64,000 bases of DNA, from positions 10,106,001 to 10,170,000 of the forward strand of contig NC_088307.1 in NCBI RefSeq assembly GCF_032854445.1, read 5' to 3'. Made by a program: the position numbers and the translations under genes. Origin of the DNA: Liolophura sinensis. Lineage: Eukaryota; Mollusca; Polyplacophora; Chitonida; Chitonidae. The first letter of the stretch is position 1, and each line of letters opens with the position of its first letter. This document shows positions 49,401 to 55,400 of the stretch, in pieces. The notes beneath the pieces were generated by a model, which saw only the letters and a program-made list of their open reading frames with translations, searched no databases and was not told the DNA's origin.

Positions 49401-52400
49401 AGCGTTTAAAGAAAATATTTTGAAACAAATGACATTATATAAGCTGTAAGAACAAAAAAGACTAAACTTTAGGCAAAATACAGGGAATGGATCATTTGTA
49501 ATCATCAGACCATTTTTAATTAAATGAAATCCTCCCGCTTTTTTTTTTTTTTGTAGAGATGATGTTTACAAGATTCACTTCCTCATGTTGACGGTGGTGT
49601 ACCTGAAGTGCTTGTCGTTGTTGTTTCATGCTGTAAGTTGTTCTCTGACTGCTGTACTATAAAGTGAAAATATTCGTCACAAATCACACCATTCAGTTGT
49701 CTCCGTCTTGGGTTTAACATATTTCAGTCTCAGTAGTGTAATTTAATAAATTGCCAAGATTTCTTTAATATCACAGTCCAGTTTTGCACGTAAATTCCAG
49801 TTGTTCCCCTTGAATTTCATACATGTAGCGAGTAACTACAGTGGACTGGACAAGTGAAGTGTTCTGCTGGAAATACATGCCATACTATTGCATTCGAATA
49901 ATCATAGCACAAGTGTTTTTAGTATCGAAATTTAGGGGGCGTTTGGTGTGGGGATAAACTGGGACCTGATCAAGGGATGCGGAACATGGCAGGCATGGGG
50001 CATGGTTTTTCAGATAATGCTGCAAAAGTAATTAATTTTTGTCTAATATTCAAAGATTAGTTCAAGTACATGATTGGAGATTTCAGTTTTTTCATACGTG
50101 AGATAATGTATGTAGATCTGCGGAGCAAAATGCAGCCATCTTGACATCTTTATGTCATGTGCGAATGGCATAATTCCCCCAACCTTTTCGCATATAAACG
50201 AGCAACTTTCAGTGTGATTTATGTGCATTTATAATGTGATTCTGTAGACAAATCTGCATTGGTTGGATAGGCCAATTTCAAAGCTTCATAGGCAAAAAGT
50301 ATAATACTATCAGTCTACACAGATGCCTTCAGAATATGCCTGAATAAACACCTTACAAACATGCAAAATGGTTGAAGAATTACAGTACATGTACCTCCAC
50401 CATGCCAACAGTAACACCCATGTCCGATCCATCCTGTGATGAAATTGTTACTCCTCGTAGAACGAGTCAGTATTTATACTCTGACGAGTCCAACTCCAAC
50501 AATGACAGCTTGGTACCTTTCTTGGAAGTAGGACGTTCCCGCATCGTCTGTCTCGTCCTACTGAATCTTAAAGGATTGTATATTAAATAGAGGTACATGT
50601 GTTATAAACCTGTTCGTTCATACAATAAAAGCTTTTTTTTTTTCACAAATTGTAGCACATGTATGATTTTTTACCTGTTTTAGATTCATTATCACTTCAT
50701 TGAGGAGAACGGGACACAAGAGGAAGCCTGGGCAGTGCTTTACTATATAGCTTATCTGTAAGTAATTAAGTATACCCAGTCAAACAGGTGAATAATTGCA
50801 AGTACCGTATATGGCCATAAATTTTGTCCATGGCTAATTTGCCCGTTTTTTGCTGATTCTGAGAGGTCTTTCGATTTTAGAAAGGTGTTTTGTAGTTTGC
50901 TTGGAACATGGGATGATAATCTATTGGAAAATTGTAATCCAAAAATAATAATTTGGGACATTTATGTGCCTCTAAAAATACACTTTTGTGGGCAAAATTT
51001 TAGGTCATTTAGGGTAATGGTTACTGATTGGTGGAGTACAGCATCAAAAAAAACAATCAAAAAAATAAATTCTAAGGGTGGTAGTGGCAGTAAACAGGCC
51101 ACAGCTTTCATGCAGTCTTACATGCAGTTTGTGGAAGACAGTTGCTGTTGGTGAGAGTTTGTTTGCATGCATTTGTCCAGGATGAAGGTGACACTGTTGT
51201 TCCTCACTATCCTGTTGATTGGAGCTGGATGGGCCTTTGTCAAACATCTGCTGTCTGAGAAGGAGAAGAAACTCTTCATCATCTTCATCCCTCTACAGGT
51301 AAGTAGGTGCATCTGTCAGGTAGACAGTAACATCTTAATCACATATCTCAGGTGGTAAAATTTCAATATCAACAAAAGAAAAAAAATTGTACATGATTCA
51401 GCTTTCAGAAGTTTTGTAATGCTGTCCTTGTGAAATGAACAAAGGAAAAAAATTACTATGTGTTATTTGTATGTTTCCATATTAGAAGCTATTAGTGTAA
51501 GTAAAATGTATAGTATAGAGAAAAACCATAGCTGCAGAGACAGTGTGATAGCTGGCAAATGGTCACACATAACCGGTGAAATATGGCCTCGTGTCAATTT
51601 ACCTCAGTTATGGTGAAAAAAAAATGCAATGCAGTTAATTGTAATTTATTAGACGTCACTGGTCTAAAATTACTCAAAGTGCTGTTCATACCCAGGAAGC
51701 TGGGGATCAAAATGAGGGTGCAAAATCTATACATTTTGTCTACTGACCTACAGGAGCTGACAGACTAAAGTGTCCAATGTGGAAACTGCTGGCCCTGGAA
51801 ACATACACTTCATAATTAGCACTCTTATTACCTCGCTTGGCGTTCCTCCCCAGAGGAAAGGCCAAGATAAGATATTATTTATGAAAACAAAATTTAGCTT
51901 TAAAACATGAGCTTTTTATAATGAATCACTTTTAAATCAAGAGTGTATGGTAATGAAAAATGTTCGATTCAGTAGCAAGTTTTGGTTGATGGGTCTTGCA
52001 TCCTTTAATACCAGTAAATCCTACATTGTATTGGTGTTGTTTGCTTGTTTAGATCCTGGCCAACGTGGCATTCATTATCGTAGAAGAAAGCGAAGAAGGA
52101 ACGTCGGTGTACACCACATGGAAGGAGATCTTCATCCTGGTGGACCTGCTGTGTTGTGGGGCCATCCTGTTTCCTGTTGTGTGGTAAGTCTGCTATATTA
52201 CACCACAGGGAAGGAGATCTTCATCCTGGTGGACCAGCTGTGTTGTGGAGCCATCCTGTTTTCTGTTGTGTGGTAAGTCTGCTATATTACACCACAGTGA
52301 AGGAGACCTTCATCCTGGTGGACCTGCTGTGTTGTGGGGCCATCCTGTTTCCTGTTGTGTGGTAAGTCTGCTATATTACACCACAGTGAAGGAGATCTTC

Positions 52401-55400
52401 ATCCTGGTGGACCTGCTGTGTTGTGGGGCCATCCTGTTTCCTGTTGTGTGGTAAGTCTGCTATATTACACCACAGTGAAGGAGACCTTCATCCTGGTGGA
52501 CCTGCTGTGTTGTGGGGCCATCCTGTTTCCTGTTGTGTGGTAAGCCTGCTATATTACACCACAGTGAAGGAGACCTTCATCCTGGTGGACCTGCTGTGTT
52601 GTGGGGCCATCCTGTTTCCTGTTGTGTGGTAAGTCTGCTATATTACACCACAGTGAAGGAGACCTTCATCCTGGTGGACCTGCTGTGTTGTGGGGCCATC
52701 CTGTTTCCTGTTGTGTGGTAAGTCTGCTATATTACACCACAGTGAAGGAGATCTTCATCCTGGTGGACCTGCTGTGTTGTGGGGCCATCCTGTTTCCTGT
52801 TGTGTGGTAAGTCTGCTATATTACACCACAGTGAAGGAGACCTTCATCCGGGTGGACCTGCTGTGTTGTGGGGCCATCCTGTTTCCTGTTGTGTGGTAAG
52901 TCTGCTATATTACACCACAGTGAAGGAGATCTTCATCCTGGTGGACCTGCTGTGTTGTGGGGCCATCCTGTTTCCTGTTGTGTGGTAAGTCTGCTATATT
53001 ACACCATATGGAACGAGATCTTCATCCTGGTGGACCTGCTGTGTTGTGGGGCCATCCTGTTTCCTGGATGGAGATCTTCATCCTGGTGGACCTGTTGTGT
53101 TGTGGGGCCATCCTGTTCCCTGGATGGAGACCTTCATCCTGGTGGACCTGCTGTGTTGTGGGGCCATCCTGTTTCCTGTTGTGTGGTAAGTCTGCTATAT
53201 TACACCACAGTGAAGGAGACCTTCATCCTGGTGGACCTGCTGTGTTGTGGGGCCATCCTGTTTCCTGTTGTGTGGTAAGTCTGCTATATTACGCCACAGT
53301 GAAGGAGACCTTCATCCTGGTGGACCTGCTGTGTTGTGGGGCCATCCTGTTTCCTGTTGTGTGGTAAGTCTGCTATATTACACCATATGGAACGAGATCT
53401 TCATCCTGGTGGACCTGCTGTGTTGTGGGGCCATCCTGTTTCCTGGATGGAGATCTTCATCCTGGTGGACCTGTTGTGTTGTGGGGCCATCCTGTTCCCT
53501 GGATGGAGATCTTCATCCTGGTGGACCTGCTGTGTTGTGGGGCTATCCTGTTTCCTGTTGTGTGGTCTGCTATATTACACCACATGTTAAGAAAATGTTA
53601 GGGTTGGTATTTCCAGTATCACTGCATGTATTAACCTTGGAGTTTTACATGCATATGAAGCACATTGACACAAAGGGGGATAACCCAACTCTGATGCTCT
53701 GTGTGCATGCAGGTATTGATTATCGTAACTGACCAAATTCAGTAGTAATGTATTGATTTATTTATGTGATTGGTGTTTTACGCCCTACTCAAGAATATTT
53801 CACTTATACAACGGTGGCCAGCGTAATGCTGGGTGGAAACCGGGCACAGCCCAGGGGAAACCCCTGGACTCACAGCGACCGCAATGGTGAGAGACCCCTG
53901 GGTCATTACGCTGCGCTAGCGCGCTAACCAACTGAGCCACAGTAATGCATTGAACTGAAGTTTTACATTCATGTGTCTGCTACAGGCAAGCACCTTGGGG
54001 GCCGTGTTACCAAATCTAAGTGGTAGCCTTGCCTTCATTTTAGTATTTTTAGCCATGCTCTCATGCACAAAAAACTGGTTTTGTTGACACATTTTACAGG
54101 TAGGAGGTTTATAGTTTGGTGCTCATATTGTAATGTGGAATCCACAATAGAATTAATCTTATACATACAAGTACATGCACCTTGGTATGAACAAACTGGT
54201 GTTTTGTCTCTGCTTTTACCTGCTCTTTCATGATGTCGAGAGTCCCCGGGATCAAACCCGGGATCAGGGCATACCAAAGACGTCAAAAATGGTACATGCT
54301 GCTGAACACCTGCTGAATATTTCAGCGACCAACCGTGGGCATCATAGGTGTTCAAGTAACCCCAGCAGCAATGTTTCAGTTTGAGTAAATCCCACCAATT
54401 CATGAGAGCTGCTTGATGAACTACGCCTGATCCTACATGCTGTGCACGCAAAGGGGGTTAGTGCGCAGGCAACACACATTGAGTCTGGAGCGCCCCCAAC
54501 ACCCCAACCCCCCAACCCCCAACCCCCCAACCAATGCGGTCACTGTGAGTTCAAGCCCAGCTCACGCTGGCTCTCTCAACAGCCGTAGATGGTCATGGCT
54601 TCCCCCAGGTTCTATCCGGTTTCCTTCCACAATAATGATGACCGCCATCGTTTAAATGAAATTTTCTTGAGTACACCATAAAACACCAATCAAATAAATC
54701 AAAAAAATAAATATAATGTAATATCAATTGTCAACATTGTTTTTAATAATGGCTGAATCTGTTGGTCGCGAAGAGGTATTTACACTGTATGGCCATTTTG
54801 AAATAATTTAATATTAGCTGACAGTTCCATATCTTCAAATCCAAAAAGCAGAACTGTATATTGGTAGTTAGAACTGGATGAATCAGTCAAATGTAAAGAT
54901 TGGTGAACTCTTGGTTTGATCATGGATTGGTCAGTGTCATAAAATAAACTTACAAAGTTCCCAGCTTCCCTGTTTTTTCAACTGATAAATGTACATGAAG
55001 AACAGTTTCATTGTAAATTGACTTTACAGCTATTTTTAATGTAATTCTTTATTTATTTAACGAGGATTTCTCACAGCCTAATGACTACAACGGAGATCTC
55101 CTCAAAGCAACAATTAACAACATAATAACTAACGAAGTGCATACATTTAAATATGAGAATACATATTTCAGATATAAGTTGAAATAAAGTAATCATTATT
55201 TACAATGTTAACATCATTATTACCATTACCATGGTCATAAAATCTTTGTGTATCATTGATAAATTTATGCACACATTTAAAAACAAGTTTATTATCTTCG
55301 TAATTTAGAATCTTTAGAGCCAAACAAAAGTATATTACATATATATCGTGAACATTGTGGAATAAAAACAGAATAATTTACACCGGCTGAAATAATTTGT

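Follow-up and report, generated by a model that had tools for sequence, protein, structure and literature searches.

One question raised by a minisatellite in the chiton Liolophura sinensis is how a conserved gene can carry a series of near-identical 5' splice sites directly behind one of its exons, and which of these donors the spliceosome would use. The array lies in a window of 64,000 nucleotides (C13:10106001-10170000, the whole stretch analysed), begins inside a coding exon of a GPR107-type gene and carries the donor of that exon along in its repeat unit. The answer proposed here, which we consider probably correct, is that this is a near-neutral minisatellite of the kind described as mirages in lancelets, seeded by an 11-bp repeat common to exon and intron and tolerated since splicing would take the first donor.

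In the one haplotype assembled, the array occupies 52110-53586 on the plus strand and consists of 18 copies of the 3' end of the exon and an 11-bp terminal partial copy, with Tandem Repeats Finder (TRF) scores of up to 2171, far above chance. The core GAGAYCTTCATCC is present 18 times, at spacings of 89 bp (ten times), 56, 56, 89 (three times), 56 and 56, corresponding to 13 periods of 89 bp, four donor-less copies of 56 bp and a final copy whose donor is damaged. Each 89-bp unit joins 74 nt from the 3' end of the exon (52110-52183) to the first 15 nt of the intron (52184-52198), and the donor is kept in 13 of the 18 copies, 12 times as GTAAGT and once as GTAAGC. A preliminary description, made from the letters alone, had proposed just such a unit of 74 exonic and 15 intronic nucleotides repeated right behind the real donor, with about 18 copies of the helix piece, 13 donors and near-identity of the copies; the reading of the sequence bears out all of this. 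The features of the array are as follows.

52110-52120, plus strand: left 11-bp direct repeat TACACCACATG, exonic, candidate seed of the first duplication; the identical 11 bp closes the array.
52184-52189, plus strand: donor 1, GTAAGT, the putative functional 5' splice site; read-through leads to TAA at 52185-52187.
52273-53369, plus strand: 12 later donors, with intron starts at 52273, 52362, 52451, 52540 (GTAAGC), 52629, 52718, 52807, 52896, 52985, 53186, 53275 and 53364.
53015-53126, plus strand: first pair of 56-bp units, 33 nt including the donor missing.
53394-53505, plus strand: second pair of 56-bp units, belonging to a 379-bp higher-order repeat.
53491-53575, plus strand: final copy, 4 nt of its donor deleted.
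53576-53586, plus strand: right 11-bp repeat TACACCACATG, intronic; it reads ATG, like copy 1, where 10 of the 18 copies have AGTG.

All four 56-bp copies are missing the same 33 nt, the donor among them, and the 379-bp block recurs within the array (TRF 52747-53584, 2.2 copies). Copy 1 is distinct from all 17 later copies. The heptamer CACAGTG, which creates a new AG, occurs in 10 of the 18 copies and CACAGGG in copy 2; copy 2 also carries three substitutions found in no other copy, and the last copy has a deletion and a substitution of its own. Interior copies are thus homogenised, with few differing columns, and edge copies divergent; the unique substitutions of copy 2, beside the exon, are expected if the edges escape homogenisation. 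Across the genome (609,464,459 bases in 632 contigs, searched by DNA matching that scores the best candidates), the unit has 18 matches, and 18 of 18 fall inside this array; an ordinary satellite built of it elsewhere was thus not found.

The exons of the host gene were located by local tblastn, a segment of human GPR107 serving as query.

49557-49632, plus strand: upstream exon (tblastn and in-frame join).
50684-50757, plus strand: upstream exon (tblastn and in-frame join).
51181-51298, plus strand: upstream exon (tblastn and in-frame join).
52053-52183, plus strand: array-bearing exon of 131 nt, entered in phase 0 and left in phase 2, TTTAG|ATCCTG to TGTGTG|GTAAGT; its last 74 nt are copy 1.
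55574-55667, plus strand: next exon, TTTTCAG|GTCCATTCG, which completes the split W codon with its third base.
57877-57924, plus strand: downstream exon (tblastn and in-frame join).
58604-58764, plus strand: downstream exon (tblastn and in-frame join).

With AG and GT borders, these seven exons join through donor 1 into one open frame of 233 residues, a model that spans the gene short of its 5' end and its last exon or exons. The joined protein matches Pfam GOST_TM (PF06814) at 8.2e-39 over profile positions 30-246, and the array exon is 73% identical to the human GPR107 segment, a pairwise figure. As judged from its sequence, the gene encodes a GOST seven-transmembrane protein, probably of the GPR107 type, as had been proposed. 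One further PF06814 locus was found, on C6, which we take to be TMEM87-like, and a PDB search with the array exon and with the joined protein returned no relative. From donor 1 to the acceptor before 55574 the intron (52184-55573) measures 3390 bp and splits the W codon as TG|G. Read-through of donor 1 gives TGG TAA, so that splicing from any of donors 2-13 would terminate the protein behind the helix of the array exon. The same intron holds, 3' of the array, a stretch like a short interspersed nuclear element (SINE) at 53740-53950, presumably one of the SINE-type interspersed repeats familiar from molluscs.

How such an array could arise can be set out in a few steps. The 11-bp sequence would have been present by chance both in the exon, at 52110, and 15 bp inside the intron, and replication slippage or unequal exchange between the two would have duplicated the intervening 89 bp, comprising the terminal 74 nt of the exon and, with the donor, 15 nt of intron. 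Ordinary minisatellite turnover would then have raised the number of copies to 18. The first of them, still joined to the whole exon, would stay the coding copy, and the intronic copies would drift and be removed in splicing, provided that the spliceosome pairs the acceptor of the exon with the nearest, first donor; the array would then be near-neutral. Both ends of the array keep the ATG state as against the CACAGTG of 10 of the 18 copies, which fits ancestral 11-bp repeats lying 89 bp apart, enough to seed the first duplication. Because the first copy stays functional whenever a duplicated segment reaches from an exon into the intron behind it, the process should be general in the genome.

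The copies themselves bear on which of them is coding. Against the human GPR107 segment, copy 1 is identical at 19 of 24 residues and the 12 later donor-bearing copies at 16-18 of 24, a lead so small that it counts as supporting evidence only. By our own tally, which omits unit columns 1-9 (where the 56-bp units have their junctions), variation affects 11 of 65 exonic columns and 1 of 15 intronic ones, with an amino acid replaced in 8 of the 11 exonic cases; stops occur in 0 of the 12 later donor-bearing copies. Selection on the later copies as extra exons was considered and rejected, there being no trace of coding constraint in the column tally or the copy comparison.

To what extent the arrangement is peculiar to this gene was judged from a sample of other arrays. 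A probe of three GGTAAGT words spaced 62-92 bp gave 100 listed matches that, by our own grouping, form 18 arrays over 14.9 Mb of C1, all of which were retrieved and the first copy of each inspected. Four of the 18 start firmly at an exon end: a KATNIP-like gene (DUF4457 1.8e-15; joined to the exon beyond the array 3.4e-37, 82 residues against 82 profile positions), prominin (Pfam 6.1e-9), DNA-PKcs (Pfam 5.4e-16; PDB 6.3e-13) and RPC1/POLR3A (PDB 4.4e-9, the match stopping at the donor). Three probable cases raise the count to 7 of 18, namely GH18 and TRPM-like arrays, with support from neighbouring exons, and a TMC-like array that begins at the final exonic base (E = 0.047, PDB). Taken alone, the exons of L015, L022, L024 and L026 have no Pfam match; L026 is supported by PDB, L022 mainly by its upstream exon, L015 lacks a PDB match alone and counts as probable only with the upstream exon, and L024 has no Pfam family match even with the next exons and in PDB reaches only E = 0.047. 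Two others, L010 and L012, have no Pfam match. Both counts may be too low, because nine arrays (L009, L011, L014, L016-L020 and L023) were assessed by eye, outside the family search.

Outside the 18-array sample, an IKK-beta-like gene, picked by eye from the list of triple matches to a second donor word, CAGGTAAGT, has a 65-bp array at an exon end (L028 883-3001, C1:34952300-34955300), with 31 donor-like sites in the retrieved piece and a PDB match of 2.8e-13 when the upstream exon is included. A reversed-word control list supplied three further arrays, chosen by eye and at most candidates for exon-end arrays: L027, L029 and L030. Of these, L030 741-1809 (reverse complement of C1:4266800-4269400) is a 69-bp array within a long open frame, with about 15 copies of a 23-residue repeat, apparently a coding minisatellite. 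The preliminary description had called a minisatellite that starts in a coding exon and carries its donor rare, a claim that does not survive: such structures are published for amphioxus (PMC3087553), and 4, or with weaker evidence 7, of the 18 sampled arrays start at other exon ends. Exon-end minisatellites are evidently not rare in this genome, and a rough extrapolation from the one 14.9-Mb stretch with its 4 to 7 cases gives about 160-290 arrays visible to the probe.

Several of these genes offer further comparisons between first and later copies. Over the retrieved portion of the TRPM-like array, copy 1 has no stop, while 15 of the 17 later donor-bearing copies do, a contrast that is weaker elsewhere (prominin, 2 of 15 later copies with stops; DNA-PKcs, 1 of 5). 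Of 22 residues of the human DNA-PKcs segment, copy 1 shares 12 and the later copies share 8-11. These comparisons are consistent with a rule by which the first donor would be the working one. The POLR3A array separates position from strength, for its donor 1, GTAAAT, is followed by ten donors of the sequence GTAAGT. POLR3A is an essential gene, and its array exon was found once in the genome, among the best candidates scored; provided that the gene functions, as expected of an essential gene, splicing must take the first donor although it is the weaker one. That exon-end minisatellites are a genome-wide class reaching apparently single-copy essential genes, in some of which, such as POLR3A, a weaker donor precedes ten stronger ones, is advanced tentatively, as a proposal that falls somewhat short of the probable. 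Were it true, and did POLR3A-like genes work, donor choice would follow position and not strength, and the genome would be a ready-made test.

Four points tell against the explanation by a tolerated minisatellite and first-donor use. The identity advantage of copy 1 in the GPR107-type array is slight. Use of donor 1 is something we infer from the open frame and the copy comparisons. RNA folding, which covered six segments, predicts a hairpin over the donor in 5 of the 5 donor-bearing segments folded, donor 1 included, at weak z-scores of -1.1 to -2.2, and such a hairpin, if real, would hamper donor 1 no less than the others. Finally, the 11-bp repeat may be a mere remnant of a partial copy. 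How splicing ignores the later donors is the testable part of the proposal.

Among other explanations, the one that survives best, although unlikely, is that the array acts as a splicing switch, in which later donors or internal pseudo-exons of 64 nt are used and the resulting truncated protein or unproductive mRNA tunes GPR107 output. The 13 donors are near-identical, the CACAGTG of ten copies supplies an acceptor-like AG that together with a donor can bracket 64 nt, and the predicted hairpins lie over the donors folded. However, TAA follows in frame directly after donor 1, the distance from donor to AG within a unit is 25 nt, less than an ordinary animal intron requires, and the recurrence of this architecture in unrelated genes speaks against a switch specific to this one.

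It is quite improbable that the repeated donors are retained since extra binding of U1 aids exon recognition or shields the long intron from premature polyadenylation. Donors are recognisable in 13 of the 18 copies, but recent homogenisation would explain their intactness equally well, and the donor has been lost by a shared deletion in four copies and by another deletion in the last. Counts of donor words point both ways. Triple CAGGTAAGT has 405 matches against 101 for a reversed control word, and the single word 9807 against 4854; corrected for these single-word counts, the excess of the triple is about two-fold per word. This comparison uses one control word, is driven by large arrays and is not relied upon, and 60 of the 100 single sites listed (C1 up to 3.8 Mb) fall by hand count in six clusters. 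The same excess is also expected if arrays arise randomly and common real donors are frequent seeds. Triple GGTAAGT, in contrast, shows no donor excess genome-wide, with 2755 matches as compared to 2865 when the word is reversed, a crude comparison that is not normalised by word frequency.

An assembly error that inflated the copy number or misplaced the array is hardly credible, even though tandem repeats are prone to mis-assembly and one amphioxus mirage seems aberrantly assembled in the draft genome (PMC3087553), for the array measures 1.48 kb, its flanks are unlike it, its copies can be told apart, the HiFi reads behind the assembly (14x; PMC11068029) average 8,347 bp and exceed it, and the same assembly holds many other arrays.

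The genome is full of minisatellites, and eight further arrays lie in the window (TRF; at least 4 copies, units of 23-109 bp), at 1512-2483, 19182-20499, 22149-23345, 33597-34010, 41796-42203, 55911-56240, 58834-59167 and 59296-59649. Elsewhere in the window, by eye, are gag/pol-like open frames of a long terminal repeat retroelement with reverse transcriptase-like and integrase-like stretches (8484-12226, plus strand), an intronless open frame of 439 residues resembling a rhodopsin-type G protein-coupled receptor (31359-32678, plus strand), and TRIM-like open frames whose cysteine patterns resemble those of RING and B-box domains (5652-6427, minus strand).

The closest known relatives of the chiton array are the amphioxus mirages, in which boundaries between exon and intron have been tandemly duplicated in the manner of a minisatellite, in Adh3 and in globin genes. 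RT-PCR (reverse transcription PCR) suggested there that regular splicing is undisturbed, the two haplotypes of BflGb6 had 6 and 3 units, and cases are described on either side of an exon, that of BflGb9 at a 3' exon boundary (PMC3087553); PGBD5 and TnC are additional examples (PMC3902484). In its build the chiton structure is of this known kind: the unit spans the boundary and includes the splice site (74 exonic and 15 intronic nt, GTAAGT), the coding copy stands at the array edge in an otherwise intact gene model, as the single frame of seven exons and the GOST_TM match of 8.2e-39 indicate, the interior is homogenised with divergent edge copies, and the array lies, as in BflGb9, at a 3' exon boundary. 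By analogy, regular splicing would be expected through the chiton array. It differs in that its host is a mollusc and not a cephalochordate, in its 18 copies and 13 donors compared with the 6 and 3 units of the BflGb6 haplotypes, and in that several genes of one genome are hit, found by sampling. A literature search with narrow terms in open-licence papers, subscription papers lying outside it, found no report of an exon-end minisatellite in a mollusc.

Dual-specific splice-site repeats, described for human UBC and VCX3A, likewise bear splice signals in each tandem unit, their AGGT core serving as both donor and acceptor and their introns being multiples of the unit (PMC10809524). The chiton array was considered as one of these and rejected, since its 89-bp consensus lacks AGGT, its donor reads TG|GTAAGT and its intron of 3390 bp is no whole multiple of the 89-bp unit. 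Laboratory constructs of the 1980s with duplicated 5' splice sites in globin genes also placed identical donors in series and tested the effect of position. Unlike these, the chiton arrays are natural, reach dozens of donors and occur in several genes, and thus offer a natural series, in conserved genes, on how the spliceosome chooses among identical neighbouring donors. Public HiFi and tissue RNA sequencing data exist for this chiton, so that the donor rule is directly readable. The array extends mirages, known from lancelets, to a mollusc, and bears on intron gain from duplications that span an exon-intron boundary.

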